Source: Myxococcaceae bacterium | Lineage (GTDB): Bacteria > Myxococcota > Myxococcia > Myxococcales > Myxococcaceae | Assembly (NCBI GenBank): GCA_016926755.1 | Contig: JAFGNZ010000025.1 | Coordinates: 1-64,000, forward strand | Direction of reading: 5' to 3' | Length of the DNA stretch: 64,000 bases | Shown: positions 11,968 to 30,575 of the stretch, in pieces | Layout of the letters: each line of letters opens with the position of its first letter | How positions within the stretch are numbered: the stretch's first letter is position 1 | The notes under the pieces: model-generated | Seen by the model: the letters and a program-made list of their open reading frames with translations, nothing else | The model's database searches: none | What the model was told of the DNA's origin: nothing | Translations under genes and position numbers: made by a program

Positions 11968-12311
11968 GCAAGCTCTCCAGCAGGCGGGGGAGTCCCCCTT
12001 ACCCTCATGCCACGAACCAGAGGAACAATTCGTGGCGCCAAATCATCCGCCGCCCCCAGGCCACCTGCCGGCCATGGCTCGGGCTCTTGAACACACGGGG
12101 GTTCTTTAGCCGACACCCCCTGTGTACGCCACCGGTCACTTTCGCACACCTTCTGGGGAATGGTTCCCGATTCCGGACGTTCCGCGAATGGGGGGATGAA
12201 CCTGTACGTCTCGGATTGGGGTCTACTAAGGGAAATCCGTGATTATTTGTCAGGGGCCCTCGGTCTGATTCCACAGTGGGCCGCTGGCAGTCCGAAGTGG
12301 GGGATGTGGAG
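11968..12311. promoter_or_regulatory. Divergent intergenic region with three inverted repeats
   Basis: These 344 bp separate the Lgt-family gene and the first subtilase and contain no credible gene. Visible structures are CCACGAA/TTCGTGG (12009-12033), a longer stem ACACA-GGGGGT/ACCCCC-TGTGT with one bulge (12091-12125), and GGGAA/TTCCC near 12160. The stretch 12220-12260 is locally AT-richer than its surroundings and is the likeliest promoter area for the subtilase. No T-rich terminator was seen. Confidence 0.35.
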
Positions 12312-13988
12312 ATGAAAGCCGTCATGAAGCCCGGTGTGCACTACACCGGGGAGATTCATGTGAAGCTGCGAGAGACCGCTCCGGTGGCGCGCCTGGCGAT
12401 GGCGCGAGCGCCGCGGCGTCGCACGCTCACGGCCATTGCCCGGTCCGCGGGGGTGCGCGCGGTGGGCTCGCTGGTGGATGCGCTGCCTGCGCAGGCACAC
12501 CCCCACCGCACCCGGCTCTCGGCCGAGCTGCCGCACGTGAAGCCGGGCGGCGAGCTGTCGCGCTGGCACACCGTGAGCCTGCCCGGCGGCGGCGCGAAGT
12601 CGAAGCGCTCGCGGCCACCCGAGCCTCTGCGCGTGGCGATGTCCCTGCGCGGCGGTGCGGCCCCCGCGGCGCCTGGCGGTCCCTCCACGGAGGACGTGTG
12701 GGGCGCGGTGCGCGCGCTGATGGAGCAGCCGGAGGTGGAGTACGCCGAGCCGGACGCGGTGATGGTGCACCCCACCGTGGAGCTGCCGGAGCCCCAGGGG
12801 AAGAACCTCCCGCGGGACTGGCACCTGCGCGCCATCCGCGTGCCGCAGGCGTGGCGGCTCTTCGAGAAGGCCGGCCAGCTCCCCGGTGAGGGCATCCTCA
12901 TCGGGCACCTGGACACCGGCTGGACGATGCACCCCGCGGTGCCCGGGCCGGACCGGCTCATGCCGGGCGTGGACCTGTGGGACAGGCACCGGCCGGACGC
13001 GAGGGATCCGCTCGAGACGGGTCTGGGCTTCTCTCCCGGGCATGGCACGGCGACGCTCTGCCTGCTGGCGTCCAACCACGACGACTACCTGGGCCTCGCC
13101 ACCCACGCCTCCGTGCTGCCGGTGCGCGTGTCGCCCTCGGTGGTGCACGTGGCCACCCACGCCATGGCGCTGGGCATCCTCCACTGCGTCGCCCAGGGCG
13201 CCCAGGTCCTCTCCATCAGCATGGGCGGGCTGCCCAGCCGGCTCTGGGCGGACGCGGTCAACCATGCCTACGAGCGGGGCGTGGTGCTCTGCGCGGCGGC
13301 GGGCAACCACTTCCCGCTCGGCCGCTCGCTGCGCACGCCCACGAGCGTGGTGTACCCGGCGCGCTTCAACCGCGTGCTCGCCGTGGCCGGCATCACCCAC
13401 GGGCTCAAGCGCTACCGCTTCAATGATCGCATGTCGGGCAACGACGGGCCGGAGGTGGACCTGTGCGCGCCGACCCCCGAGGTGATGTGGGCCAGCCCCC
13501 CCGAGGGCTATCGGCTGGGGGGCGGCACCTCCTCCGCCACGCCCCAGGTGGCCGGAGCCGCGGCGCTCTGGCTCTCCTACCACCGCCGGGCGCTCGAGGA
13601 CTTCTCGCCCACCGAGCGGGTGGAGGCCTGCCGCCGCGCGCTGCTGCAGAGCGCCGACGACGTGGGACCCTACCCGTATCATCCCAGGCCGGAAGAGCCG
13701 TCTCGCATGCACAACGAGTACTTCGGAGATGGCCGACTGAATGTGGAGGCAGCCCTGCGCATCAAGCCCATACGCGGTCTGCAGCCCCAGCCACGGGATG
13801 ACGTGAGCGGGTCATTGCTGAAGCTGCTGGGCGTCGGTCTCCCCGCCGCCCCCGCCGGTCCCCAGGTGGACGCGGACCAGATTGAACTGCTCTGGGCCAC
13901 GCACACCGCCGGCGTGCAACAGGCCGCCCAGGCCTCGAGTGCTCCCATCGTGTCCGAGAGGCTCCGGGCGCGGCTGGAGTTGCCATGA
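12312..13988 (+). CDS. Subtilisin-like S8 serine peptidase without signal peptide
   Basis: About 558 residues from ATG 12312, chosen because GGGGGA lies 7 nt upstream; the track's start at 12276 has no such site. The catalytic triad is complete: Asp in IGHLDTGWT (about 205), His in SPGHGTATL (about 245) and Ser in GGGTSSATPQVAGAA (about 412), with oxyanion Asn in CAAAGNHFP. The roughly 190-residue N-terminal region before the Asp has no signal peptide and could be a prodomain or substrate-binding module, so a cytoplasmic or unconventionally exported enzyme is inferred. It is followed 85 nt later by a second subtilase on the same strand. The C-terminal about 60 residues extend beyond the catalytic fold. 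Confidence 0.88.
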   Translation: MKAVMKPGVHYTGEIHVKLRETAPVARLAMARAPRRRTLTAIARSAGVRAVGSLVDALPAQAHPHRTRLSAELPHVKPGGELSRWHTVSLPGGGAKSKRSRPPEPLRVAMSLRGGAAPAAPGGPSTEDVWGAVRALMEQPEVEYAEPDAVMVHPTVELPEPQGKNLPRDWHLRAIRVPQAWRLFEKAGQLPGEGILIGHLDTGWTMHPAVPGPDRLMPGVDLWDRHRPDARDPLETGLGFSPGHGTATLCLLASNHDDYLGLATHASVLPVRVSPSVVHVATHAMALGILHCVAQGAQVLSISMGGLPSRLWADAVNHAYERGVVLCAAAGNHFPLGRSLRTPTSVVYPARFNRVLAVAGITHGLKRYRFNDRMSGNDGPEVDLCAPTPEVMWASPPEGYRLGGGTSSATPQVAGAAALWLSYHRRALEDFSPTERVEACRRALLQSADDVGPYPYHPRPEEPSRMHNEYFGDGRLNVEAALRIKPIRGLQPQPRDDVSGSLLKLLGVGLPAAPAGPQVDADQIELLWATHTAGVQQAAQASSAPIVSERLRARLELP

Positions 13989-14073
13989 AACCTCTGGAGT
14001 CCCCTCTCGTGATCTTCCCCGCGCAGTCCGCAGTCCCCATGCCGTCGCAGTCCCAGTAAGGAGTGAATCTTCC

Positions 14074-15465
14074 ATGAAGTCCTATCTTTTGGTTCCCAAG
14101 GAGAGCATCGAGACCCGGGCGCGCGTGGGGGTGAGGGGTACGACGCGGGGTGAGCGGCAGCTCCAGCGCTCCACGGCGCTGCGCTTCCCCAGCGCCCAGC
14201 TCGCCGCGGAGGCGTTGCAGCAGCTCGGGCTGCGCTCGGCGACCCTGCCCGGCGCGCGGCCCCCCAGCACCAAGAAGACGCGCCGCGGCAAGGGCGGCCA
14301 CGTCATCCAGGTCGCGGCGACACCCATCCCTGGCCCCGTGCAGGAGCTGACCGGCTCGGAGGCAGGCTCGTACCGCTACATGCCGCTCATCGGCGCGACG
14401 ATGGCGCACTTCTACTCGGACAAGGCCGAGCGCTCGGCGCGTGGAGAGCTCGCGCGAGACTTCGAGTTCATCCCGGACGTGGTGCCCCTGTCCTTCCCCG
14501 GCCCCATCGCCGGTGAGACGGGCCCGCGCAACCGCGGCATGGCCTCGCTGGCCGAGCGCGAGTGGCCCGCCGAGTGCGGCGTGCCCCTGGCCCATGCCCA
14601 GGGCATCCGCGGCGCCGGCGTGATGCTCGGCATCCTCGACACGGGCATCGACGCGGACCACCCCGAGCACGCCAGCAAGGTGATCCAGTTCCGCTACGTC
14701 TCGCTCTTCCCCAACTCGCCCCACACCCCGGCGCGAGACGTGCGCGGCTTTGATCCGGGTGGCCACGGCACCCACGTGGCCGGCATCGCCGCGGGCGTGC
14801 ATCACGGCGTGGCGCCGGAGGTGGACCTCTACGTCGCCTCGGTCATCGAGTCGGAGACCATCCGCACCAGCCTCGGCCGCGTGGCCGCGGGCATGGAGTG
14901 GCTGCTGCACCAGTTCTCCCGGCCGGAGAACTCCACGCGGCCCGCGGTGGTGAACATGTCGCTGGGCTTCCCGGTGGAGTGCCCGGCCGGCGTCAGCGAG
15001 GCCGACTACCGCCTCAACCTGCGCCTGCTGCGGACCCTGCTCCATCGGCTCCTGGAGAGCAACGTGCTGCCCGTCGTTGCAGCAGGCAACGATGGCCCCG
15101 GCAGGGTGGGCTACCCAGCAGGCTTTCCGGAGGCACTGGCCATTGGTGCAGTCGACTTTGACAGGAAAGTGGCCAGCTTCTCGGCCAGCGGCGTGGTGGA
15201 CAAGCGCTCCGTCCCGGATGTCATGGGTTACGGTGTTAACATCTATTCAAGCACCGAGCGGCGGTGCAACAACCAGGCGTTCTACGAACGAATGAGTGGC
15301 ACGAGCATGGCGGCCCCTTATGTTGCCGGTATTGCAGCACTGTATCGTTGCCGTGCGCCTGACTTGACGGCGGTCGAGGTGAAGGATTTGATTCTGGCGA
15401 ATACGGTCAAGCTCAAGCGCTCGTCGGTCCACAAGACGGGCAAGGGACTGGCCGTCTATCGCTGA
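14074..15465 (+). CDS. Second subtilisin-like S8 serine peptidase without signal peptide
   Basis: About 463 residues from ATG 14074, with AAGGAG 10 nt upstream; the longer ORF start at 13882 is rejected. The triad is Asp in GILDTGIDADHPE, His in DPGGHGTHVAGIAAG and Ser in MSGTSMAAPYVAGIAALY, with oxyanion Asn in VVAAGNDGPG, a textbook subtilase. About 160 residues precede the Asp and lack a signal peptide. From about 15,080 onward codon use shifts (more A/T third positions, such as TTT GAC AGG AAA), unlike the 5' part, hinting at recombination. It is flanked by another subtilase and a small propeptide-like ORF, probably as a three-gene operon. Confidence 0.9.
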   Translation: MKSYLLVPKESIETRARVGVRGTTRGERQLQRSTALRFPSAQLAAEALQQLGLRSATLPGARPPSTKKTRRGKGGHVIQVAATPIPGPVQELTGSEAGSYRYMPLIGATMAHFYSDKAERSARGELARDFEFIPDVVPLSFPGPIAGETGPRNRGMASLAEREWPAECGVPLAHAQGIRGAGVMLGILDTGIDADHPEHASKVIQFRYVSLFPNSPHTPARDVRGFDPGGHGTHVAGIAAGVHHGVAPEVDLYVASVIESETIRTSLGRVAAGMEWLLHQFSRPENSTRPAVVNMSLGFPVECPAGVSEADYRLNLRLLRTLLHRLLESNVLPVVAAGNDGPGRVGYPAGFPEALAIGAVDFDRKVASFSASGVVDKRSVPDVMGYGVNIYSSTERRCNNQAFYERMSGTSMAAPYVAGIAALYRCRAPDLTAVEVKDLILANTVKLKRSSVHKTGKGLAVYR

Positions 15466-16238: not shown

Positions 16239-16985
16239 CTAGAAGGCGAGGCCGCCGTCCACGTCAATGGTGCGGCCGTTGAAGTAGTCGCACTCGAGGA
16301 TGAACTTCACGGCGACCCAGATGTCCTCGGGCACGCCGATGCGGCCCACGGGGATGGAGGCCACCAGCGCATCCCGGGCCTTCTGGTTCATGCCCTGGGT
16401 CATCGGCGTCTCGATCATGCCGGGGGCCACGGCGCCCACGCGGATGCCGAAGGCGGCGAACTCCTTCGACCAGGTGACGGTGTTGGCGGCGAGCGCGGCC
16501 TTGGCGGAGACGTAGTTGGACTGGCCGCGGTTGCCGTGCCGGGCGATGGAGGACATGTTGACGATGACGCCGGGCTTCTGCTCCGCCTCCACCATCTTCG
16601 CCACCACCTCACGCACCATGAGGGTGGCGCCGGTCAGGTTGACGCCGATGACGGCGTTCCAGTCCGCGGTGCTCAGCTTCTTCACCTGGCCGGTAGCCTT
16701 ATCCTTCTTCACCAACAGGGCATCGCGGAGGATGCCGGCGTTGTTGATGAGGCCGTTGAGCCCGCCCATGGCCTGGTGCGCCCAGCTGACGAAGGAGACG
16801 CAGTCCTCCTCGTTGGACACGTCGAGCCTGCGGCGGTGGATGCCGGCGGGCAGCGCGGCGAGCTTCTCCTCGCTGATGTCGCCCACGGCCACCTGGGCGC
16901 CGGCCTCGAGGAGCCGCTGCGCGAAGTGGGCGCCCATGCCCTGGGCACCGCCCGTCACCACCACCTTCAGGTCCTTGAGCTGCAT
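16239..16985 (-). CDS. Short-chain dehydrogenase/reductase (FabG-like)
   Basis: About 248 residues from ATG 16985, with AGGAG 6 nt upstream; the track's longer start is rejected. Cofactor motif TGGAQGMG (residues 11-18), structural INNAGILRD, catalytic Ser in NMSSIARHG and YVSAK (about 157-161) are all intact. An Asp in VAVGDIS suggests NAD preference. The C-terminus has the usual GGLAF ending. It resembles 3-oxoacyl reductases or 3-hydroxyacyl-CoA dehydrogenases. A copy of the island operator lies about 110 bp upstream (17088-17112), tying it to the TetR-controlled lipid genes; a beta-oxidation-type or fatty-alcohol oxidation step is inferred, not shown. Confidence 0.9.
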   Translation of the reverse strand: MQLKDLKVVVTGGAQGMGAHFAQRLLEAGAQVAVGDISEEKLAALPAGIHRRRLDVSNEEDCVSFVSWAHQAMGGLNGLINNAGILRDALLVKKDKATGQVKKLSTADWNAVIGVNLTGATLMVREVVAKMVEAEQKPGVIVNMSSIARHGNRGQSNYVSAKAALAANTVTWSKEFAAFGIRVGAVAPGMIETPMTQGMNQKARDALVASIPVGRIGVPEDIWVAVKFILECDYFNGRTIDVDGGLAF

Positions 16986-17171: not shown

Positions 17172-18122
17172 TCAGGGCTTGGGAGCGGAGGGCGCCGAGG
17201 CCGCACTCCGGGTGGCATGTGCGTACACGCTCCGGGAGATGTCCACGATGAGGGAGGTGGCCACCTTCTCGTCGGGGATGCCGCTGGTGAGCACGACGAG
17301 GACGTAGGGCGCCCGGCCTGGGGGATAGACGATGGCCGCGTCATGGAGGACGCCGGAGATCTGCCCCGTCTTGTGGGCCACGGGGGTGCCGGGAGGCAGG
17401 CCGGCGGGAATCTCGTCGTTCAGCTCCTGGGCCAGGAGGATGGCGCGCATGGCCTGGGTGGAGCGGGCCGAGGCCGCCTCCCCGCGCTCGATGGCGATCA
17501 GCAGCGTGGCGAGCTCCCTCGCGCTGGCGGTGTTGTTGAGCCCCTGCTGGTACGCCTTCCCGTCCTCCACCCCGCGCAGCACGGTCATCTTCCGCGCGCC
17601 CAGGGTGCGCAGGGTCTGGGTGACGCGCTGGGCGTCCACCAGCGCGATGATCAGGTTGGTGGCCAGGTTGCTGGAGCGGGTGATCATCCGCTCCAGCAGC
17701 TCTCGCGCCGGCACAGGCCTGCCGAGGCGCTCATAGAGCGCCGCGTCCTCATCCTCCTTGGCGTCGAGCGAGTACGGCGAGCCATCCACGATGGAGGCGA
17801 ACTGGTTGACGAGCGGGATGGGCTGGTCGAGCGACAGCTTGCCGGCGTCCACCTGGCGGAAGAACTCGATCATCACCGGGACCTTCATGGTGCTGGCGGC
17901 GTGGAAGGAGCGGTCGGCCTCCAGGGACACCGCGTCCTTCGCGTCGCCGAGATCCTGGTAGACCACCGCCACGGTGGCGCCCTTCACCTGGGCGATGCGC
18001 GCCTGGAGGGCGCCGCGGAGGGCTTCGGGGCCCGAGGGGGTGGCCATGAGCATGACGAGCAGCGCGGTCTGGAGCATGAGAGGATGGGCGGTGAGAGGGA
18101 GGGGGCGGCGCGGCGCGTCCAT
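17172..18122 (-). CDS. Exported class A beta-lactamase-fold serine hydrolase
   Basis: About 316 residues from ATG 18122 (other ATGs at 18137 and 18062 are possible; no start has a clear Shine-Dalgarno). A hydrophobic stretch LMLQTALLVMLMATPSG suggests a signal peptide. Penicillin-recognising motifs are SxxK (STMK), SxN (SSN) and KTG (HKTGQISG). The omega-loop Glu of true class A enzymes is not obvious; the corresponding segment reads GVEDGKAYQQGLNN. The fold is that of the Beta-lactamase2 family, so either weak beta-lactam hydrolysis or a peptidase/esterase role is possible. It is divergent from tetR, with operator site 2 in between, and sits inside the lipid island. Confidence 0.83.
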   Translation of the reverse strand: MDAPRRPLPLTAHPLMLQTALLVMLMATPSGPEALRGALQARIAQVKGATVAVVYQDLGDAKDAVSLEADRSFHAASTMKVPVMIEFFRQVDAGKLSLDQPIPLVNQFASIVDGSPYSLDAKEDEDAALYERLGRPVPARELLERMITRSSNLATNLIIALVDAQRVTQTLRTLGARKMTVLRGVEDGKAYQQGLNNTASARELATLLIAIERGEAASARSTQAMRAILLAQELNDEIPAGLPPGTPVAHKTGQISGVLHDAAIVYPPGRAPYVLVVLTSGIPDEKVATSLIVDISRSVYAHATRSAASAPSAPKP

Positions 18123-18183
18123 GACGCAGGAGGCCATGCGCGGAGGTTTTGACAAGCCCGTCAGCGCGGTGCTACCCGTAGCT

Positions 18184-18208
18184 GAAACATGAATCGCCCT
18201 TCAACTTC
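18184..18208 (+). promoter_or_regulatory. Candidate TetR operator, site 2, overlapping the tetR start codon
   Basis: GAAACATGAATCGCCCTTCAACTTC includes the ATG of tetR (18189), so bound repressor would block initiation of its own gene. The position between tetR and the divergent hydrolase gene fits autoregulation. Confidence 0.7.
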
Positions 18209-18896
18209 ATCCGCGCGCACGCTCCCCGTCACGCCCCGAGGCCAGAAGACGCGCCAGAAGTTGCTGCGAGCGGCCGAGGTCATCTTCGGAGAGAAGGGCT
18301 ATGAGCGCGCCTCCATCGCGGATATTACCCGCAAGAGCGGCGTGGCGCTGGGGACTTTCTACGTCTACTTCCCGGACAAGCAGTCCATCTTCGTGGAGGT
18401 GGTGGATGAGCTGGGCGAGCGCCTGCGGCGCCTCATCGCCGAGTCCGTCACGGGCCTCACCCACCGGCTCGACGTGGAGCGCGAGGGCCTGCGCGCCTTC
18501 TTCGAGTTCGCCCGCGAGCACCCCAACCTCTACCGCGTGGTCCGCCAGGCCGAGTTCGTGGACGAGGCCTGCTACCGCCGCTACTACGACCGCTTCGCCA
18601 AGGGCTATGTGCGCGGGCTCACCCAGGCCATGGAGGCCGGGGAGATCCGCCGCATGGATCCGGAGAGCCTGGCCTACTGCCTGATGGGCATCGGCGACTT
18701 CCTCGGCATGCGCTGGGTCATCTGGGAGGAGGATCCCGGCCTGGAGCGCGTGCTGGACACCGCGATGACGCTGATCCGCCACGGGCTGGACCTGCGCCCC
18801 GCGCCCCGGGCCGGCAAGGCGTCCTCCAAGCGCGCCCCCTCTTCCGCCAAGCGCGGCGCCCGCACCGCGCGCAACACCCTCCGGAGCATGGCATGA
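18189..18896 (+). CDS. TetR/AcrR family transcriptional regulator
   Basis: About 235 residues. The N-terminal TetR HTH is clear: KTRQKLLRAAEVIFGEKGYERASIADITRKSGVALGTFYVYFPDKQSIF (about 18-66). The all-helical ligand domain follows. A basic tail (KASSKRAPSSAKRGARTARNTLRSMA) extends beyond the typical 200 residues. The ligand is probably an acyl-CoA or fatty acid, by context. The proposed operator covers its start codon and recurs at the SDR, lipase and MFS promoters. Its stop overlaps the KASIII-like start by 4 nt (ATGA), so tetR heads a translationally coupled operon with the KASIII-like, ligase and MFS genes. Confidence 0.92.
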   Translation: MNRPSTSSARTLPVTPRGQKTRQKLLRAAEVIFGEKGYERASIADITRKSGVALGTFYVYFPDKQSIFVEVVDELGERLRRLIAESVTGLTHRLDVEREGLRAFFEFAREHPNLYRVVRQAEFVDEACYRRYYDRFAKGYVRGLTQAMEAGEIRRMDPESLAYCLMGIGDFLGMRWVIWEEDPGLERVLDTAMTLIRHGLDLRPAPRAGKASSKRAPSSAKRGARTARNTLRSMA

Positions 18897-19888
18897 GATA
18901 CGCGCAGATCCTCTCCACCGGTCGCTACGTCCCCGAGAAGGTCATCACCAACGGGGACATGGATCGCCTGCTCGGCGAGCCCGTGGGCGACTGGCTGGTG
19001 CAGAACGTGGGCATCCGCGAGCGGCACGTGATGGCGGAGGACCAGGCCACCTCGGACCTGTGCGTGGCCGCCGCGCGGCAGGCCCTGGAGCGCGCCGGCA
19101 CGAGCCCCGCGGAGCTGGACCTCGTCATCGTCGCCACGGACACCCCGGACTACCTCAGCCCGGCCACCTCCTCGGTGGTCCAGGCCAAGCTGGGGGCGGT
19201 GAACGCCGGCACGTATGATCTCAACTGCGCCTGCGCCGGCTGGGTGACGGCGCTGGACGTGGCCAGCAAGACCATCGCCGCGGACGAGAGCTACAAGCGC
19301 GTCCTCGTGCTGGGCGCGTACGGCATGACGCGCTACGTCAACTGGAAGGACAAGAAGACGTGCACGCTCTTCGCGGATGGCGCGGGCGCGGTGGTGCTGG
19401 GCGCGGGTGACAAGCCCGGCTTCATGGGCGCCAGGCTGCTGGCCAACGGCGAGTACCACGACGCGCTGGGCATCTACACCGGCGGCACGTCCCGCCCGGC
19501 CACCGCGGAGACGCTCGCGCTCACCGGCGGCAAGCCCGCGGTGCAGTTCGTCCGCAAGTTCCCCTCCACCTTCAACACCGAGCGCTGGCCCCAGCTGCTG
19601 GACATCCTGCTCAAGCGCGCCGGCCTCGAGCTGAAGGACGTGAGCCAGTTCGTCTTCACCCAGCTCAACCTGCGCACCATCGAGGCCACCATGAAGGTGC
19701 TCGGCCAGCCGATGGAGAAGGCGCACTACACCATGGACAAGTGGGGCTACACGGGCTCGGCCTGCATCCCCATGACGCTCGACGACGCGGTATTGCAGGG
19801 CAAGGTGCGGCGCGGAGACCTGGTGGCCTTCTGCGCCAGCGGCGGCGGGCTGTCCATGGCCTCGGCGCTCTACCGCTGGACGGCTTGA
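18893..19888 (+). CDS. KASIII (FabH)-like thiolase-fold protein with altered active site
   Basis: About 331 residues, the normal FabH length. The nucleophile Cys is kept in DLNCACAGW (about 112), and the C-terminal GGG loop is present. The FabH PHQANLRI motif reads FTQLNLRTI (catalytic His to Thr, about 254). The NTSAAS motif reads YTGSACIP (catalytic Asn to Tyr, about 283). A Cys-only enzyme could still form an acyl-thioester but should not perform standard decarboxylative condensation. Acyl transfer, thioester hydrolysis or non-decarboxylating condensation are options. It is coupled to tetR by ATGA overlap and followed by an acyl-CoA ligase that could supply its substrate. Confidence 0.87.
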   Translation: MRYAQILSTGRYVPEKVITNGDMDRLLGEPVGDWLVQNVGIRERHVMAEDQATSDLCVAAARQALERAGTSPAELDLVIVATDTPDYLSPATSSVVQAKLGAVNAGTYDLNCACAGWVTALDVASKTIAADESYKRVLVLGAYGMTRYVNWKDKKTCTLFADGAGAVVLGAGDKPGFMGARLLANGEYHDALGIYTGGTSRPATAETLALTGGKPAVQFVRKFPSTFNTERWPQLLDILLKRAGLELKDVSQFVFTQLNLRTIEATMKVLGQPMEKAHYTMDKWGYTGSACIPMTLDDAVLQGKVRRGDLVAFCASGGGLSMASALYRWTA

Positions 19889-19925: not shown

Positions 19926-21491
19926 ATGTTCATCGGCGATTGGATGGGGCGGGGTGCCCTGTACTGGCCGGAGCACATGGCGGTGGTGGATGTGGCCAAG
20001 GGGGACGCTGGCCGCTTCACCTACCGCGCGCTGAACGCTCGCGCCGAGGCGCTGGGCGGCTGGCTGCGCGACGTGGCCGGCGTGAAGCCCGGGGAGCGCG
20101 TGGGCCTGGTGGCCCACAACGGCGTGGAGTACCTGGATGCGCTCTTCGCCTGCGGGAAGATCGGCGCCATCTTCGTGCCCTACAACTGGCGCCTCCACGC
20201 CCAGGAGCTGACGGACCTGGTGCGCGACACCACGCCGCGCGTGCTGCTCTACGGTGACGACTTCCACGACAGCGTGGCCCAGGTGAAGGAGCGCCTCGGT
20301 GACGCGCTGCGCCTGGTCCACCTGGAGACGAAGGGCCTGCCGGGGAGCATGCCCTACGCGGAGACGCTGCTGCACCAGCCCGCCGCGCCGGTGGTGAACG
20401 CGCAGGTGGATGCCGAGGACATCCTCTGCCTGCTCTTCACCGGCGGCACCACCGGCCGCTCCAAGGGCGCCAAGGTGTCCTACCGCATGGTGGCGTGGAA
20501 CACGCTGAACACGCTGGTCCACGAGGTGCGGCCAGGGGACGTCACCATCACCCACACGCCCATGTTCCACACGGGCGGGCTGCTCGTGTACACGGTGCCG
20601 CTGCTCACCGCGGGCGGCACCGTCGTCATCATGCGCCGGTGGGATCCGGAGGAGCTGCTCACGCTCCTCGAGCGAGAGAAGGTGACGCTCTTCTTCGCGG
20701 TGCCCACGCAGTACCAGCAGCTCCACGACGCGCCGCGCTTCCGCGAGACGGACTTCTCCCGCGTGCGCTTCATGACGAGCGGCGGCGCGCCCATGCCCGT
20801 GCCCCTCATCCAGGCGTGGCAGGCCGTCCACTCGGTGCCCTTCAAGCAGGGCTTCGGGATGACGGAGTTCGGCCCCGGCCTCTTCAGCATGGGCCCCGAG
20901 TTCGCCATCTCCAAGGCGGGCTCCATCGGCCGGCCCAACTACTTCATCGACGCGAAGCTGGTGGACGACGACGGCCGCGAGGTGCCCGTGGGGGAGGTGG
21001 GCGAGCTGGTCCTCAAGGGCCCCTCCATGTGCTCCGGCTACTTCAACGACGAGGCCGCCACGAAGGAGGCGATCGACGCCCAGGGCTGGCTCCACACGGG
21101 AGATCTGGCCCGCCGGGACGCGGACGGCTTCTTCACCATCGCCGGGCGCAAGAAGGACATGTTCATCTCCGGCGGAGAGAACGTGTACCCGCTGGAGCTG
21201 GAGACGGCGCTCTACGAGCACCCCGCGGTGCAGCAGTGCGCGGTGGTGGGCGTGCCCGACGCGAAGTGGGGCGAGGTGGGGCGCGCCTTCGTGGTGCTCA
21301 AGCCGGACGCCGCCGCCGCCCCCGAGGAGCTGCTGGCGCACCTGAGGGAGCGGGTAGCGCGCTTCAAGGTGCCGAAGAAGGTGGAGCTGCTGGAGCGCAT
21401 GCCGGTGTCCGCCGCGGGGAAGATCCTCAAGCGGGAGCTGCGGCAGGCGGCCATCGCGGCGGACGCGCGCGGCCAGGAGCAGGGCCGATGA
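19926..21491 (+). CDS. AMP-forming acyl-CoA synthetase, copy 1 of 3
   Basis: About 521 residues. ANL-family motifs in order: P-loop LLFTGGTTGRSKGAKVS, A5 GFGMTEFGPG, A7 HTGDLARRD, A8 GRKKDMFISGGENVYPLE and the catalytic Lys in SAAGKILKREL near the end. It should activate a carboxylic acid to acyl-AMP and then acyl-CoA in the cytoplasm; medium- or long-chain fatty acid is inferred from the neighbouring lipase and barrel. It lies 37 nt after the KASIII-like gene, and its stop overlaps the MFS start (ATGA). Two further ligases are in the same island. Confidence 0.93.
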   Translation: MFIGDWMGRGALYWPEHMAVVDVAKGDAGRFTYRALNARAEALGGWLRDVAGVKPGERVGLVAHNGVEYLDALFACGKIGAIFVPYNWRLHAQELTDLVRDTTPRVLLYGDDFHDSVAQVKERLGDALRLVHLETKGLPGSMPYAETLLHQPAAPVVNAQVDAEDILCLLFTGGTTGRSKGAKVSYRMVAWNTLNTLVHEVRPGDVTITHTPMFHTGGLLVYTVPLLTAGGTVVIMRRWDPEELLTLLEREKVTLFFAVPTQYQQLHDAPRFRETDFSRVRFMTSGGAPMPVPLIQAWQAVHSVPFKQGFGMTEFGPGLFSMGPEFAISKAGSIGRPNYFIDAKLVDDDGREVPVGEVGELVLKGPSMCSGYFNDEAATKEAIDAQGWLHTGDLARRDADGFFTIAGRKKDMFISGGENVYPLELETALYEHPAVQQCAVVGVPDAKWGEVGRAFVVLKPDAAAAPEELLAHLRERVARFKVPKKVELLERMPVSAAGKILKRELRQAAIAADARGQEQGR

Positions 21492-22747
21492 CGGCGGAGG
21501 TGTCGGTGGCACCCGCGCAGCAGCTGCCCTGGTGGAGGGAGCCCACGAGGGCGCAGTGGAGCTCCTTCCTGGCCGCCTGGGTGGGGTGGATCCTCGACGC
21601 GTTCGACTTCACCATCTTCCTGCTGCTGATGCCGAGCATCACGAAGGAGTTCGGCGTCAGCGTCACCGCCACCGCGGGCGCCATCACCCTCACGCTCCTG
21701 GTGCGGCTGCTGGGCGGCCTGGTGGCGGGCGCGGCGGCGGACAGGTGGGGGCGCAAGCTGCCGTTGATGATCTCCATCCTCTGGTTCGCCCTGTGCGACG
21801 GGGCGGTGTACTTCGCGCCGACCTTCTTCTGGGTGCTGGTGCTGCGCACGCTCTTCGGCTTCGGCATGGGGGCGGAGTGGACGAGCGGCTCCACGCTGGC
21901 CATGGAGAACTGGCCCGAGCGCAGCCGCGGAATCGCCTCGGGGATCCTCCAGGGGGGCTTCGCCATCGGCTTCATCCTGGCCGGGATCGTCTGCGCCCTC
22001 GTGGCGCCGCGGTGGGGCTGGCGCGTGGTCTTCCTCATCGCCGCCGTCCCCGCGCTGCTGGTGCTGCCCATCCGCTTCTGGGTGATTGAGAGCCCCGAGT
22101 GGAAGAAGGCGGCGGCGAAGGTGAAGCAGCCGCTGGGCGAGCTGCTGCGGCGGGGGCTGCTGACGCGGCTCGCCTGGGCCTCCGCGGTGATCGCGTTCGG
22201 CTTCGGGGCCTACCAGGGGCTCACCGGCGTGTACTCCGTCATGCTGGTGAAGCAGTATGGCCTCACCCAGCAGGGCATCATGCCGCTCGTCATCCTCTTC
22301 AACCTCGGCACCATGATCGGAGCCGTGGCCTGCGGCGCGCTGGTGATGCGGCTGGGCCTGAGGTGGGCGGTGGCCATCCCGTCGCTCGGAGTGCTGCCCT
22401 TCCTCCCGCTCTATGTGGGGATGGTCCCCGGGGGATTGGCGCCGGGGGCCTTCCTGGGCGGCCTGCTGGGGGCGGCCTGCACCGGCATCGCCCCCCTGCT
22501 GCTCACCTCCTTGTTCCCACCCGACGTCCGCGGCAAGTGCGTGGGGCTCGTCTACCACGCGGGCTCCTTCGCCGGCGCCTTCGTCGCCATGGGCGTGGCC
22601 GCGCTCGCGGAGCATGGAGGCGTCACCTTCGCCCAGGCCATCGCGCTGGTGGTGGGCCTGAGCGAGATAGGCATCGTCGCCCTGATCTGGCTGCGCCCCA
22701 AATCCACCGAGGGCGAGGTGGGCGCCACGGCGCCCGCACTGCACTGA
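21488..22747 (+). CDS. MFS transporter (AAHS/sialate-symporter-like)
   Basis: About 419 residues with twelve hydrophobic segments. It opens with AWVGWILDAFDFTIFLLLMPSI, typical of acid:proton symporters (AAHS/NanT-like), and carries the loop 2-3 motif DRWGRKL and the duplicated motif around RLGLRW. It is translationally coupled to the ligase (4-nt overlap). By context it would import a carboxylic acid, or another lipid hydrolysis product, to be activated by the ligase encoded just upstream. The longer track ORF fuses it to a shadow frame; the start at 21488 is chosen because of the coupling. Confidence 0.9.
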   Translation: MTAEVSVAPAQQLPWWREPTRAQWSSFLAAWVGWILDAFDFTIFLLLMPSITKEFGVSVTATAGAITLTLLVRLLGGLVAGAAADRWGRKLPLMISILWFALCDGAVYFAPTFFWVLVLRTLFGFGMGAEWTSGSTLAMENWPERSRGIASGILQGGFAIGFILAGIVCALVAPRWGWRVVFLIAAVPALLVLPIRFWVIESPEWKKAAAKVKQPLGELLRRGLLTRLAWASAVIAFGFGAYQGLTGVYSVMLVKQYGLTQQGIMPLVILFNLGTMIGAVACGALVMRLGLRWAVAIPSLGVLPFLPLYVGMVPGGLAPGAFLGGLLGAACTGIAPLLLTSLFPPDVRGKCVGLVYHAGSFAGAFVAMGVAALAEHGGVTFAQAIALVVGLSEIGIVALIWLRPKSTEGEVGATAPALH

Positions 22748-22832
22748 AGTCATCCGTGGGAGGTTCGCGCCGGGGGGCCTCCCGCATCATGTCGTCCCGG
22801 CAGTTCCGCCGGAAGAAATGAGGAGTACCCGT

Positions 22833-23432
22833 ATGAAGAAGAAGCTGCTGTCCGCGGTGATGCTGTGCGCGCTGGGGTTCGTGGGCTGTGGAGGGGACGA
22901 CGACATCATCAAGCCTCCCCCGGTGCCGAAGTTCGACACGGCCGAAAACATTCGTAACTACCTCGACGGCAAGTCGCTGCTGATGGAGGGGGCCAACATC
23001 CCCAGTCACCCCAACGGCTTCAACGAGGATGTCGACTATGGCGCTTACACGCAGTGCTACCAGAAGGTGCAGATGAGCGTCTCTGGCGGCAACTTCAACG
23101 TGACCAGCACCCTGGGCACCGTGCGCAATGGCGCGTGTGATCACGACGCGGTCTCGGGGACCCAGAACTTCCTCTCGACGGCCGTCCTCATCGAGAACGT
23201 GAAGGCGGATGCCTCGTGCTTTGACATCTCGGTGAGCTACAACGGCTTCTCGCAGGTCGGGCGCGGCAAGATGAGTGAGGATGGCAAGACGCTCACCCTG
23301 GAGCTCTACTTCGGAGGCCAGGCCTCCGGTGCCACCTGTGAGGCCGGGGCGGTTGGCTCGCAGACCGTGACGCTCAACACGCAGGCGTTCACCGGCAACG
23401 CGCAGCAGGTCTACACCGTCTCCGCGCAGTGA
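22833..23432 (+). CDS. Small lipoprotein, unknown function
   Basis: About 199 residues from ATG 22833, with AGGAG 7 nt upstream. The signal MKKKLLSAVMLCALGFVGCGGDDD ends in a near-consensus lipobox (FVGC). An Asp pair soon follows at +4/+5; sorting signals in myxobacteria differ, so the final membrane is uncertain. The mature part has no recognised domain; it is Thr/Asn/Gly-rich and beta-like, with three or four Cys residues (TQCYQK, GACDH, DASCFD, ATCEAG) that may form disulfides. It precedes the outer-membrane barrel gene by 51 nt and may be its accessory subunit. Confidence 0.8.
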   Translation: MKKKLLSAVMLCALGFVGCGGDDDIIKPPPVPKFDTAENIRNYLDGKSLLMEGANIPSHPNGFNEDVDYGAYTQCYQKVQMSVSGGNFNVTSTLGTVRNGACDHDAVSGTQNFLSTAVLIENVKADASCFDISVSYNGFSQVGRGKMSEDGKTLTLELYFGGQASGATCEAGAVGSQTVTLNTQAFTGNAQQVYTVSAQ

Positions 23433-23483: not shown

Positions 23484-25145
23484 ATGACGTGGTGCTTGAA
23501 GGCTGAAGCAGGCAGGGCCCGGCGGGGAGGCGCGACGGCGCTCGCCCTGATGGTGGCCGGGCTCTCACTCTCCGCGAGCGCGGGTCCGACGACGGTGCCG
23601 GGCGCGTACTACGGGAAGTGGGAAGAGGAGAAGGATCGCGAGGAGGACGCGGAGCCGCGGGAGTTCACCTTCATCAACTACTTCTTCACGCGCGGCACGG
23701 TCACCAATCAGGTGGGGGATCCGAGCGGCCTCAAGGGTGTGTCGCTCGGGCCCATCGGCAACCCCGCGGGCAGCGCGGTGCGCGTGGAGGACCTGACCGC
23801 CTACTACATCGAGCAGCGCTGGATCCCGGTCATCGAGTACAGCCCGTGGTTCGTGGACGGGCTGGCCAGCTTCCGCGCCCAGTTCGAGGTGGACTTCCTC
23901 TGGGGGCGCGCGGCCAACACCATCCAGCCCAACGAGGGCGGCGGCTTCAACGCGGACCAGGTCAACATCCAGACCAAGAACGTCAACGTCGCCCTCTACC
24001 CGTTCCGCAACCCCAACACGCTCACGCTGCTCATCGGCGCCCAGCCCGTCTATGACACCTACTTCGACCCGACGCGCACGCCGCTCAATGACATCATCCG
24101 CACCGGCTACAAGCTCACCTTCCTGGGCAGCGACGCGACAGGCATCACCGTCTTCAGCAACTACTTCAAGGGGCTGGCGAAGCTGAGCTGGCTGCCCCTG
24201 GGGAATGCTCAGGTGGACAAGGGGACCACGGGAGATCCGCGCCTGAAGTACATCTGGTTGCTCACCGCGGACTACGCCTATCCGGTACAGCCAGGGACGA
24301 ACGTGGGTGTCTCCGGCTGGCTCCTGCGCGACGACACCCAGGGAGAGGCCTTCGCCTTCGAAGGGCTGGTGAGGAGCGGCCCGTCCTCCGCGGGCCTGAG
24401 CGGCTTCACCGGTACCGCGCGCTTCAACATCGAGCGGCCCACGGGCACGGCGTTCTGGCTGGGCGCCAACTTCCACCACAACATCGACTTCCGCACGGGG
24501 CCGCTCGGGGCCTCCGGCTTCCTCATGTACAACGGAGGTGCGTATCGCAGCAGAAGCGCGGACACGACCGGTAACCGCGAGGTGGAGATCAGCGGCCTGT
24601 CCGCCAACGCGGAGGTGCTCTACAACTGGGGCCGCACGCCCAACGACGTGGTGTCGCTCGAGGGCCTCTACACCACGGGCGACAAGGACCTGACTGACGG
24701 CCGGTACACGAGCGCCTTCACCCTCAACATGTACGGCCTGCCGGGCGCGGTGTGGTTCAACCACAAGACGCTGCTGCTGTTCCCCTTCACCAGCACGGCC
24801 AACAACTACACGGGCGCGGTGACGGACATCTCCAACCAGGGCTACGGCCTGCGCGCGGCCATCGCCACCGGCGCGATGGACCTCATCCCCAACAAGCTGA
24901 ACCTGAAGCTGGGCACGGCCCTGGCCACCAGCGACGTGACGCCGCCGCGCTGGAGGGAGGACGTGCCGCGCGGGCGCTTCATCGGCGCCGAGGTGAACGC
25001 GGAGCTGAAGTACCACATCCGCTACCTCATGACGGTGGGCCTGCACGCCGGCTACATGTTCAAGGGCAGCTTCTATGACGGGGCGGAGCGCGTGACGCGC
25101 AACCCCTGGGCCACCTTCACCACCTTCACCTGGTACGCGTTCTGA
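23484..25145 (+). CDS. Outer-membrane beta-barrel protein (porin-like)
   Basis: About 553 residues with a signal peptide (ALALMVAGLSLSASA). The mature chain is rich in alternating aromatic/polar strands and Asn/Gly turns, and it ends in FTTFTWYAF. A C-terminal Phe after alternating residues is the usual BAM recognition signal. It resembles DUF1302/alginate-export or FadL-like barrels in style, but I cannot assign a family. It lies between a lipoprotein and an esterase lipoprotein in the lipid island, so I infer a channel for hydrophobic substrate or fatty acids. The esterase gene starts 2 nt after its stop. Confidence 0.85.
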   Translation: MTWCLKAEAGRARRGGATALALMVAGLSLSASAGPTTVPGAYYGKWEEEKDREEDAEPREFTFINYFFTRGTVTNQVGDPSGLKGVSLGPIGNPAGSAVRVEDLTAYYIEQRWIPVIEYSPWFVDGLASFRAQFEVDFLWGRAANTIQPNEGGGFNADQVNIQTKNVNVALYPFRNPNTLTLLIGAQPVYDTYFDPTRTPLNDIIRTGYKLTFLGSDATGITVFSNYFKGLAKLSWLPLGNAQVDKGTTGDPRLKYIWLLTADYAYPVQPGTNVGVSGWLLRDDTQGEAFAFEGLVRSGPSSAGLSGFTGTARFNIERPTGTAFWLGANFHHNIDFRTGPLGASGFLMYNGGAYRSRSADTTGNREVEISGLSANAEVLYNWGRTPNDVVSLEGLYTTGDKDLTDGRYTSAFTLNMYGLPGAVWFNHKTLLLFPFTSTANNYTGAVTDISNQGYGLRAAIATGAMDLIPNKLNLKLGTALATSDVTPPRWREDVPRGRFIGAEVNAELKYHIRYLMTVGLHAGYMFKGSFYDGAERVTRNPWATFTTFTWYAF

Positions 25146-25147
25146 CC

Positions 25148-26203
25148 ATGACGACTCCTCGCGCCGCCACGGCCCTGCTGCTCTTCGCCGCGCTCGCCTC
25201 GGGTTGTGTCCGCTCCTACCGAGCCGAGCCGCCGCTCACCTTCCAGGACTTCCCCTACACCTCGCTCCAAGGGCCGGCGTGGCCGCTCAAGCGCCTGGCC
25301 CTGTCGAAGACGGCGCAGGCCCACCAGCTGGCCACTGTCCCGGAGGTGGCCTACGTGGAGCTCAACCCCGAGGGCCAGCGCACGCTCGTCTTCATCCACG
25401 GGCTGGGCTCGTACCTGAAGTTCTGGCGCTACCAGCTCGACACCTTCGCGGCGCAGGGCTACCGCGTCATCGCGGTGGACCTGCCCGGCTACGGCAAGTC
25501 CGACAAGCCGGCCACCTTCCCGTACACCATGGAGGCCATGGCGGACGCGGTGCGCGAGCTGGTGCTCGCGCTCGGAGTCGACCGGCCCGTGCTGGTGGGG
25601 CACTCGATGGGTGGGCAGACGGCGCTCTCCTACGCCATCCGCTACCCGGAGGAGCCCGCCGCGCTGGTGCTCACCTCGCCCGCCGGCTTCGAGAAGTTCA
25701 CCTGGAAGGAGAAGGCGTGGTTCAAGCGCGTCTTCAGCACCGTGCTCATCAAGTCCTCGCCCGAGTACGGCATCTGGGGCAGCGTGCGGCAGTCCAACTT
25801 CTCGCGCTGGCGCCCGGAGCTGGAGTGGCTCATCGAGGAGCGCGTGCGCGTCGTGTCCTCGCCGGAGTTCGACGCCTACGCCTACGCCAACGTGCGCACC
25901 GTGCACGGGCTGTCCCAGAACGACTTCGTGCGCGACAGCCTCGGCCACATCCAGGCGCCGACGATCATCGTCTTCGGTGAGGATGATCGGCTCATCCCCA
26001 ACCCCTTCCTGCACGGCGGGCGGGCCCGGGAGATCATGGAGTACGGGCACGCGGGCATCCGCGGCTCGCAGCTGGTGGGGCTGGAGCGCTGCGGCCACTC
26101 GGTGCAGCTCGACTGCCCCGAGGAGTACAACGCGGCCGTGAGCGCGTTCCTGGCGAAGCTGCCGGCCCCCGCGACGGAGCCGGCCCCCGCGCCAGTGCCG
26201 TGA
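25148..26203 (+). CDS. Alpha/beta hydrolase lipoprotein (esterase/lipase-like)
   Basis: About 351 residues. The signal ends in lipobox ALASGC, so the enzyme is lipid-anchored in the envelope. The fold shows the oxyanion motif FIHGLGSYLKFW, nucleophile GHSMGGQ (about 157), acid in FGEDDRLIPNP (about 278) and catalytic His in CGHSVQLD (about 317). It ends in a Pro/Ala-rich tail. It starts 2 nt after the barrel stop, so the two are translationally coupled. Together with the secreted lipase encoded convergently, it probably hydrolyses esters at the cell surface. The exact substrate is unknown. Confidence 0.9.
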   Translation: MTTPRAATALLLFAALASGCVRSYRAEPPLTFQDFPYTSLQGPAWPLKRLALSKTAQAHQLATVPEVAYVELNPEGQRTLVFIHGLGSYLKFWRYQLDTFAAQGYRVIAVDLPGYGKSDKPATFPYTMEAMADAVRELVLALGVDRPVLVGHSMGGQTALSYAIRYPEEPAALVLTSPAGFEKFTWKEKAWFKRVFSTVLIKSSPEYGIWGSVRQSNFSRWRPELEWLIEERVRVVSSPEFDAYAYANVRTVHGLSQNDFVRDSLGHIQAPTIIVFGEDDRLIPNPFLHGGRAREIMEYGHAGIRGSQLVGLERCGHSVQLDCPEEYNAAVSAFLAKLPAPATEPAPAPVP

Positions 26204-26242: not shown

Positions 26243-27271
26243 CTACGGGATGGTGTGGTTCCGCACCATGCTGTACTGGACGCTGCCGGTGAGGTCCTTC
26301 GAGTTGAAGTGTCCGTACGGGTACGCGGTGTACATCTTCTCTCCGGTCTGCCCGGGGATTCGCGCCGTGTACTCGTAGTAGACGATGCCGCCGTAGCCGA
26401 TGATCTCGTCCACCGTGGAGTGGATGGAGTAGCGGTAGGCCCCCTCATAGCGGCTGCTGGACATCAGGTTCTCCAGGTACGCCGAGCGGCCCGACACGCC
26501 GAAGCCATTCCACCACCCCGGGTACAGGCCGTTGGTGGAGCCGCAGGTGGGCGTGGTGGGCCCCGTCTGGTAGCAGCTCGTCAGGCCCCGGTTGGCCCCC
26601 GCGATGCCGACGAAGGTGTCCACCGATGAGGTGAGCGGCGGGCCCACGTAGTACTGGCCGCCCTCCAGCGCGTCCGTGGCGTAGCCACCGAGGATGGCCT
26701 TGCGCGCCAGCGTCACGCCCATCGAGTGCGCGATGATGTCCACCTTGGTCGCGCCGGTGTACGCCTTCACCGCCTCGATGAACTTGCGGATCTTCATCAC
26801 GTACGTCTTCGAGTGGTACTGCTGCGACGAGAGCGCCGCGCTCGCCGGGCCCCACGTCGTGGCGTACAGCTCGCTCGTCTTGTAGCCCTTGGACTGGAAG
26901 TACTCGATCGATGCGTTCCAGCCCGACTGGCCCGCGGTGCCCGTGCCGATCGCCTTGTCCGAGTTGCCGTGGATGAAGATGACCGGCTGGTTCACCACCG
27001 TGTCCGTGCTGCTCGCCTTGCCGCCGTAGCTGCCGCCGACCAGATCGTCACGCACCAGGTTGTACTGGGGCTCATAGCCGTTGGCCTGCAGCCACTGGCG
27101 GAAGTGCGAGGTGAAGCCCGCCGTGGAGACGGCCGCCGCCTCCTGCGTGGCGAGCGCTCCCGCCGGGGCCTCGGTGTTCACGTCGACAGGTTCGGTTCCG
27201 TCGCCGCAGCCGGCGGACAGGGGACCCAGGCACAGCGCACCCAGCAACGACAGGGAAGAGCCCAGACGCAT
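26243..27271 (-). CDS. Secreted or lipid-anchored class 2 lipase
   Basis: About 342 residues from ATG 27271, with AAGGAG 7 nt upstream; the longer track start is rejected. The signal ends in [11 protein letters not shown], a lipobox-like site, so a lipoprotein is likely. The Lipase_2 pattern is present: [13 protein letters not shown] oxyanion region, nucleophile in [13 protein letters not shown] and a late His in [11 protein letters not shown]. Family members hydrolyse acylglycerols or other esters. Operator copies at 27373-27391 and 27447-27471 lie in the divergent promoter shared with the MFS gene. It is the likely first step of the island's pathway. Confidence 0.88.
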
Positions 27272-27372
27272 CGCGTTTCTCCTTGAGACGGGGGATCGCC
27301 CACTCGCGGACGGAGCAGGCACGCGCCGGAGTAACGGATTTCCGCTGGAAAGGCTGTCAGTCAAATGGCCGC

Positions 27373-27391
27373 GAAGTTGAATCCTGATTCA
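27373..27391 (-). promoter_or_regulatory. Candidate TetR operator, site 3 (inverted orientation)
   Basis: Read on the minus strand this is TGAATCAGGATTCAACTTC, matching the operator core. It lies about 100 bp upstream of the lipase start at 27271. Confidence 0.6.
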
Positions 27392-27446
27392 CCCATGACG
27401 CACCGCGGGGTGGCTCCAGCTTCAACTTTCCCGGAATGACGCACCG

Positions 27447-27471
27447 GAAAGGTGAATCACCCTTCAACTTC
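27447..27471 (+). promoter_or_regulatory. Candidate TetR operator, site 4
   Basis: GAAAGGTGAATCACCCTTCAACTTC agrees with site 2 at nearly every position from TGAATC to the end. It lies about 125 bp upstream of the MHS transporter start. Confidence 0.65.
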
Positions 27472-27594
27472 ATTTGCTCGCGATGGAGCCTCTTTGGTAG
27501 GGATGCGGTCAACGCGAAGAGCCAACCTCCGCCCTCCGGCCGAGGCCCCTCCCGCGGAGCGCGCGTCAGCGGGCGGCGCGACGGAGGCAAGCAC

Positions 27595-28965
27595 ATGGAG
27601 CCCCACCCGGCCGGTACACCGGCGCCCTCGCAAAGCTCGCAGCACTCGATCCTGAAGGTGGCCGCGGCCAGCTTCATCGGCACGGCCATCGAGTGGTACG
27701 ACTTCTTCCTCTATGGCATGGCGGCGGCGCTCGTCTTCAACCGCCTGTTCTTCCCTTCGTTCGATCCGCTGACGGGCACGCTGGCCGCGTTCGCCACCTT
27801 CGCCGTCGGCTTCGTCGCCCGCCCGGTGGGTGGGGTGGTGTTCGGGCACTTCGGGGACAAGCTCGGCCGCAAGACGATGCTGAGCGCCACCTTGATGATC
27901 ATGGGCGCGGCGACGTTCCTGGTGGGGCTGCTGCCCACCTATGAGAGCATTGGCGCGTGGGCCCCCGCACTGCTCGTCTTCCTGCGGCTGCTCCAGGGCT
28001 TCGGGCTGGGCGGAGAGTGGGGCGGGGCGGTGCTGATGGCCGTGGAGCATGCGCCCGCGCACCGGCGCGGCTTCTATGGGAGCTGGCCGCAGATGGGCGC
28101 CCCCGCGGGCATGCTCGTGGCCACGGCCGTGCTCTCTGCCTTCTCCCGGATGCCCGAGGCGACGTTCCTCGCCTGGGGCTGGCGCATCCCGTTCCTGCTC
28201 AGCGCCGTGCTCATCGGCATCGGGGTATTCATCCGCCTGAGCGTGGCCGAGTCCCCCGTCTTCGAGCAGCGCAAGCGGGAAGCGCAGGAGTCTGGCCCCC
28301 CGGTGCTCGAGGTGCTGCGCAAGTACCCCCGGCAGATCCTCCTGGCCATGGGGGCGCGCTTCGCGGAGAACGGCTGCTACTACATCATCAGCACCTTCGT
28401 GCTGACCTATGGCACGGAGCGGCTCGGGCTCCCGCGCACCTCGGTGCTCAACGGTGTGCTCGCGGCCAACGTTGTCCACCTGCTGGCCATCCCGGTGTTC
28501 GGTGCCGCCTCGGACCGCTTCGGCCGCCGCCCGGTGTACCTGGCCGGCGCGGTCGGGTGTGGCCTGCTGGCCTTCCCCTTCTTCTGGCTCCTCGACACGA
28601 AAGAGGTGTTTCTCATCGGGCTGGCCATCTCGCTGGGCTTCATCGCCCACGCGGCCATGTATGGGCCCCAGGCCAGCTTCTTCTCCGAGCTGTTCGGCAC
28701 TCGCGTCCGCTACAGCGGCGCATCGCTCGGGTACCAGCTCGCCTCCGTGTTCGCGGGTGGGCTGTCCCCCGTCATCGCCACCGTCCTGCTCGCGAAGTCC
28801 GGCGGTCAGTCCTGGCCCATCTCCATCTACGTCATCGGGCTCTCCGTCATCACCCTCGCCTCGGTGTACCTCTCCGCGGAGACCTTCCGCGAGCGGCTGA
28901 CCGATGAGGCGCCCGCCGCGGCCCAGGCGGGCGCGGGGGGCTCGCAAGGCCGGGACGCGGCGTGA
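27595..28965 (+). CDS. MFS transporter of the metabolite:H+ symporter (MHS) type
   Basis: About 456 residues from ATG 27595, with GGAGG 7 nt upstream. The start ASFIGTAIEWYDFFLYGMAAALVFN is diagnostic of the MHS family (KgtP, ProP, ShiA, citrate carriers). FGHFGDKLGRKTML and SDRFGRRPVYL are the two conserved loop motifs. Twelve membrane segments are expected. It probably imports a short organic acid or related metabolite. Two acyl-CoA ligases follow on the same strand, so the transported acid may be activated at once. Its promoter carries the island operator. Confidence 0.93.
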   Translation: MEPHPAGTPAPSQSSQHSILKVAAASFIGTAIEWYDFFLYGMAAALVFNRLFFPSFDPLTGTLAAFATFAVGFVARPVGGVVFGHFGDKLGRKTMLSATLMIMGAATFLVGLLPTYESIGAWAPALLVFLRLLQGFGLGGEWGGAVLMAVEHAPAHRRGFYGSWPQMGAPAGMLVATAVLSAFSRMPEATFLAWGWRIPFLLSAVLIGIGVFIRLSVAESPVFEQRKREAQESGPPVLEVLRKYPRQILLAMGARFAENGCYYIISTFVLTYGTERLGLPRTSVLNGVLAANVVHLLAIPVFGAASDRFGRRPVYLAGAVGCGLLAFPFFWLLDTKEVFLIGLAISLGFIAHAAMYGPQASFFSELFGTRVRYSGASLGYQLASVFAGGLSPVIATVLLAKSGGQSWPISIYVIGLSVITLASVYLSAETFRERLTDEAPAAAQAGAGGSQGRDAA

Positions 28966-29026
28966 GCGCCCCGCGCTCCGGGTGAGGGGTTCAGGCTCGT
29001 GTCTTCCGCTCCGAGGTCAACGCACC

Positions 29027-30565
<1,539 letters not shown>

Positions 30566-30575
30566 GCCTGCCGCC

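Follow-up and report, generated by a model that had tools for sequence, protein, structure and literature searches.

The myxobacterial DNA analysed here, a stretch of 64,000 nucleotides referred to as the window, contains an operon coding, in this order, for a TetR-family regulator, a KASIII-like protein, an AMP-forming acyl-CoA ligase, an MFS transporter, a predicted small lipoprotein, an outer-membrane beta-barrel and a hydrolase lipoprotein, with spacings of -4, 37, -4, 70, 51 and 2 bp (Table 1). The KASIII-like protein is the subject of this analysis and is referred to as the CTY protein, after the Cys, Thr and Tyr residues described below. Lipobox and signal calls, as well as the catalytic residues of neighbouring proteins, were read by eye. 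The barrel shares 31-35% identity with Bacteroidota barrels encoded at the same place, and its long-stranded model, which is of low confidence (pLDDT 60.6), is similar to AlgE and OprD-type channels. A gene for a class A beta-lactamase-like serine hydrolase (17172-18155, minus strand), with an ASTMK motif recognised by eye, separates the divergent SDR gene from the TetR gene; in several relatives the SDR gene apparently adjoins the operon. Past the operon, the interval 26243-32096 contains a lipase-like gene on the opposite strand, a second MFS-like transporter gene and two more genes for AMP-forming acyl-CoA ligases, which suggests that they belong to a larger island for catabolising acids or lipids. 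The window also holds an adjacent pair of subtilisin-like protease genes, identified by eye, at 12276-13988 and 13882-15465, both on the plus strand.

Table 1. Genes of the operon, the nearby SDR gene and selected codons of the CTY gene (window positions).
Feature	Position	Strand	Remarks
FabG-like SDR, divergent, upstream of the operon	16239..16985	-	Conserved nearby in 36/68 long loci
TetR-family regulator	18189..18896	+	First operon gene; PF00440; overlaps the CTY gene
KASIII-like protein, CTY clade	18893..19888	+	331 aa; start shares 4 bp with the TetR stop
Asp83 codon	19139..19141	+	Invariant; Yersinia FabH has Thr there
Asn111 codon	19223..19225	+	98%; three residues ahead of the nucleophile Cys114
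Cys114 codon	19232..19234	+	Invariant nucleophile
Asn228 to Trp232 codons	19574..19588	+	Both residues invariant, unlike FabH
Thr256 codon	19658..19660	+	Position of the FabH catalytic His; invariant
Tyr286 codon	19748..19750	+	Position of the FabH catalytic Asn; invariant
Cys291 codon	19763..19765	+	98%; Tyr286 +5, like the ChlB3 His296-Asp301 spacing (PMC9573744), from which equivalence is inferred
AMP-forming acyl-CoA ligase	19926..21491	+	Closest in solved structures: a fatty-acyl-CoA synthase, a feruloyl-CoA synthetase; conserved partner
MFS transporter	21488..22747	+	Shares 4 bp with the ligase gene
Small lipoprotein, predicted	22818..23432	+	Lipobox by eye
Outer-membrane beta-barrel	23484..25145	+	Counterparts in Bacteroidota at the same place; low-confidence model, similar to AlgE and OprD-type channels
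Alpha/beta-hydrolase, probable secreted esterase	25148..26203	+	Ser-Asp-His residues and lipobox by eye

Fold and active site of the CTY protein

The CTY protein matches both KASIII halves in Pfam (PF08545 and PF08541), and its best matches in a sequence search of solved structures are FabHs. Structure prediction, which the preliminary description had proposed as a check, bears out the KASIII fold with confidence: the AlphaFold2 model built from 64 family members reaches a pLDDT of 96.3 and a pTM of 0.94, and its best solved matches are all KASIII-fold enzymes, mostly FabHs, with TM scores of about 0.9 and sequence identities to solved FabHs of roughly 30-36%. Thiolase_N and Thiolase_C were not found in the Pfam search, which gives KASIII domains only, and NCBIfam thiolase matches are weak and far under the cut-off. 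The preliminary description had also claimed that the protein keeps the Cys of FabH without the His and Asn, and this is confirmed by alignment to solved FabHs and to the FabH of the same genome (L002). The nucleophile Cys114 is retained in the motif ACAG, Thr256 in FTQLNLRTIE occupies the position of the catalytic His in the HQAN motif of FabH, and Tyr286 in GYTGSACIP occupies that of the catalytic Asn in GNTSAAS. The placement of Thr256 and Tyr286 is secure, since this stretch aligns to FabH free of gaps. All 126 distinct CTY homologues have C-T-Y and the FabHs in the same data have C-H-N, a pattern that is far beyond chance. Asp83, Pro85, Tyr143, Met145, Gly193, Asn228, Trp232 and Gly288 are equally fixed, counted over the 125 full-scoring members, and all are different in the FabH of this genome. 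In the CTY alignment, no other position clearly provides a His or Asn; the candidates are His278 (90% or more), Asn111 and Asn228. A pseudogene or random drift was also considered; decay of the gene is excluded because Cys114, Thr256 and Tyr286 are invariant in the 126 distinct homologues.

In FabH, the enolate of decarboxylated malonyl-ACP is stabilised by the His and the Asn, and since both are lost, a decarboxylative condensation of the FabH kind is unlikely in the CTY protein. An ordinary priming FabH with compensating residues would agree with the 36% identity to Neisseria FabH seen when folds were compared and with NCBIfam NF006829, which labels the protein beta-ketoacyl-ACP synthase 3. 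However, the catalytic pair is replaced in all members, the curated cut-off of TIGR00747 fabH is missed (246.1 vs 292.1 bits), as it is by seven diverse family members, and the host, a myxobacterium with a 9.6-Mb genome, encodes a separate canonical C-H-N FabH (the above L002), about 40% identical to the CTY protein. In a tree of 93 proteins, which includes only nine outsiders, the CTY homologues also form a single clade (SH-aLRT 99), separate from FabH on this limited sample. We therefore regard a compensated FabH as extremely unlikely. A profile search of 195 genomes of the phylum gives full-length CTY matches at 378 bits or more and FabHs at 307 or less, and we are highly confident that the CTY family is real, distinct, constrained and other than ordinary FabH.

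Counted with one genome per species, CTY homologues span about 13 bacterial phyla plus the Asgard archaea. Besides Myxococcota, relatives occur in Chloroflexota, Acidobacteriota, Bacteroidota, Ignavibacteriota, Balneolota, Bdellovibrionota and Gemmatimonadota, and further in Fidelibacterota, Pseudomonadota, Thermodesulfobacteriota, Elusimicrobiota and Bipolaricaulota. Two Asgard matches lie on records titled chromosomes (CP070658.1 and CP070760.1), so contamination is unlikely for these. Distant members were collected by a scan with two peptide patterns, one of which includes Tyr286; at least 32 of the 81 rows do not have the Trp demanded by that pattern and were retrieved by the other. Thr256 is absent from both patterns, and pattern-free searches agree on C-T-Y. 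In a bin labelled Thalassovita (Pseudomonadota; L119), the CTY gene and its cassette cluster with Bacteroidota and are thus either transferred or mis-binned. Both of the Asgard members checked score over the NCBI beta-ketoacyl-ACP synthase 3 cut-off. Under this automatic name the CTY gene could be taken as a sign that archaea make fatty acids in the bacterial manner, and NCBI naming, in Asgard archaea as elsewhere, could mislead lipid reconstructions. The CTY protein probably carries a wrong name in databases and is an enzyme of another, uncharacterised kind.

Conserved gene company and the proposed reaction

The genes accompanying the CTY gene recur across lineages. Among the 68 loci of 12 kb or more, a ligase is found in 54, a hydrolase in 53 and an SDR in 36; neighbours were called by similarity to a small reference protein set in loci of limited length, and these counts are lower bounds. 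The link to the adjacent ligase drawn in the preliminary description is strongly supported, given that the ligase recurs across phyla. The importer varies with lineage, being an MFS transporter in myxobacteria, a sodium:solute symporter or TonB receptor in Bacteroidota and a Liv-type ABC transporter in Asgard archaea and Chloroflexota. This conserved company suggests that an acid or ester is imported and then turned into a CoA thioester. On a cold-seep plasmid of Chloroflexota (L169; CP069395.1, 39527-58519), where the CTY gene is annotated 'ketoacyl-ACP synthase III', the whole module is present: an SDR, a hydrolase and an ABC transporter are encoded along with an acetyl-CoA hydrolase/transferase, and a thiolase gene is added together with one for its ChsH2-type OB-fold partner. 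Here the acetyl-CoA hydrolase/transferase stands in for the ligase and is an alternative route to the CoA thioester. A canonical thiolase gene was found near the CTY gene in only five of 96 loci (L066, L072, L074, L104 and L112), and in the same set an acyl-CoA dehydrogenase gene is near one and an enoyl-CoA hydratase gene near two. A full beta-oxidation cluster was ruled out, the dehydrogenase and the hydratase being nearly missing around the CTY gene.

Some loci contain a second KASIII-like gene, of the PRK06840 type (L112:12038-13072, L085, L092, L094, L111, L117 and L148). Where readable, the encoded proteins have the Cys, no His at column 256, a His at 286 and an Asp at 291; they look like a second non-canonical KASIII family, and may act in one pathway with the CTY proteins at shared loci. 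Inactive partners of the thiolase fold, such as PqsB and chain-length factors, exist, and together with these neighbours they would fit a CTY protein that has no activity of its own and serves a structural or regulatory role beside another protein, such as the PRK06840-type one. However, Cys114 is invariant, and in the neighbour comparison most CTY loci show no second KASIII-like gene; we consider such a role very unlikely.

We tentatively propose that the CTY protein uses its Cys to act on a CoA thioester without decarboxylation, most likely by thiolysis of a beta-ketoacyl-CoA, in a pathway for the uptake, activation and degradation of an ester or acid. The sequence and its conservation, the fold prediction, the operon and the recurring neighbours are the observations; the direction of this pathway, its substrate and every catalytic step are proposals, and the steps would run as follows. 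The surface hydrolase would release an acid from an ester, and the acid would enter through the outer-membrane channel and the inner transporter. Next, the acyl-CoA ligase would convert the acid to a CoA thioester, and the SDR would oxidise a 3-hydroxyacyl-CoA to the 3-oxoacyl-CoA. Subsequently, Cys114 of the CTY protein would attack the 3-oxo group and split the substrate into acetyl-CoA and an acyl-enzyme, from which CoA would take over the acyl group. The hydroxyls of Thr256 and Tyr286 would assume the enolate-stabilising hydrogen bonds, and Asp83 or Cys291 may be the proton shuttle. To our knowledge, no Claisen or retro-Claisen enzyme of this fold has dispensed with active-site His altogether, and we know of no citable precedent for a Thr/Tyr version; a site in the thiolase superfamily that lacks the usual His would mean that hydroxyl donors can support the chemistry of this fold. 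Against thiolysis, six loci, namely the five with a canonical thiolase and the plasmid, hold both a CTY gene and a thiolase, and about half of the long loci yielded no SDR. The CTY protein may perform a different step at these six loci, which weaken the idea that it is the sole thiolase of the pathway.

Alternatively, the protein could be a KASIII-like acyltransferase or thioesterase, in which the ligase's acyl-CoA acylates Cys114 and the acyl group passes to water, a carrier protein, an alcohol or an amine. CerJ and ChlB3 would be the models, and Tyr286 and Cys291 would take the parts of His296 and Asp301. The 30 residues between Phe266 and His296 of ChlB3 equal the Thr256-Tyr286 spacing, and Asp301 lies at +5 like Cys291 (PMC9573744), a correspondence read from spacing; the PRK06840-type proteins, which combine the Cys and a column 256 lacking His with the His/Asp pair of columns 286 and 291, also occur near the CTY gene in several loci. 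However, CerJ needs its His (H295N abolishes activity), the CTY protein is without a His/Asp pair at these sites, and it is hard to see where an acyl acceptor would belong among an importer, a CoA ligase and an SDR. Such an acyl transfer seems somewhat unlikely, though only slightly less probable than thiolysis. The preliminary description had suggested this kind of activity; the loss of His and Asn, and with it probably of decarboxylative condensation, is well supported, and the acyltransferase or thioesterase activity itself has the probability just given. Thiolase-like cleavage is at least as likely as acyl transfer because acid import and a CoA ligase are combined with an SDR of the 3-oxoacyl reductase type, usually with no thiolase nearby. 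The conserved operon would represent a carbon-acquisition pathway, for which we found no name, in Chloroflexota, Bacteroidota, Acidobacteriota, Myxococcota and Asgard archaea. More broadly, we see an even chance that these proteins form a new KASIII-fold enzyme class with a Cys-Thr-Tyr (plus Asp83/Cys291) site, acting in non-decarboxylative C-C cleavage or acyl transfer within a widespread, undescribed uptake-and-catabolism pathway of many bacterial phyla and Asgard archaea, and mis-annotated throughout as FabH.

Comparison with known systems

No paper describing the CTY family was found in literature searches limited to open-licence papers. The closest systems are compared individually. With FabH, the CTY protein has the fold, the length and the Cys nucleophile in common; in contrast to FabH, it has the invariant Thr/Tyr in place of His/Asn along with other fixed changes, and its cassette serves uptake and CoA activation rather than containing fatty-acid synthesis genes. 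In the solved-structure search with the CTY query, FabH scores 206 bits and entries such as 3row, 3-oxoacyl-[ACP] synthase III entries that we take to be OleA, score about 65. OleA uses a Glu117-Pro intersubunit general base, whereas the CTY protein has Ser89-Pro90 (TDTPDYLSPAT) at the position inferred to correspond. OleA itself was ruled out by the missing Glu-Pro motif and these scores. A biosynthetic, OleA-like non-decarboxylative Claisen condensation, in which the protein couples two acyl-CoAs, the product is reduced by the SDR and the remaining genes serve its tailoring or export, would account for the four superfamilies that the CTY locus shares with OleABCD, namely a thiolase-fold protein, hydrolase, AMP-ligase and SDR (PMC7064751). 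This likeness is at the superfamily level only: the partners match generic ligases, hydrolases and FabG-type SDRs and no named Ole proteins, and the importers (Liv-ABC with binding proteins, TonB receptors) favour uptake, leaving the condensation improbable. ChlB3 resembles the CTY protein in keeping the Cys and, as judged from spacing, in apparently having a non-His residue at the FabH His position. However, ChlB3 and CerJ require a His/Asp pair (PMC9573744), for which the CTY protein has Tyr286 and Cys291. The PRK06840 / NF005308 '3-oxoacyl-ACP synthase' family is likewise non-canonical and KASIII-like, with no His at column 256, but differs in having His 286 and Asp 291 and is about 22-25% identical to the CTY protein. 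Thiolases, the counterparts of the reaction that we favour, share that proposed reaction and a nucleophilic Cys, whereas the CTY sequence is of the KASIII type, with no thiolase acid/base residue mapped. Since it departs from FabH in triad and score, from CerJ and ChlB3 in the His/Asp pair and from OleA in the Glu-Pro motif, the CTY protein is filed as a variant of the KASIII-like kind, outside every characterised family.
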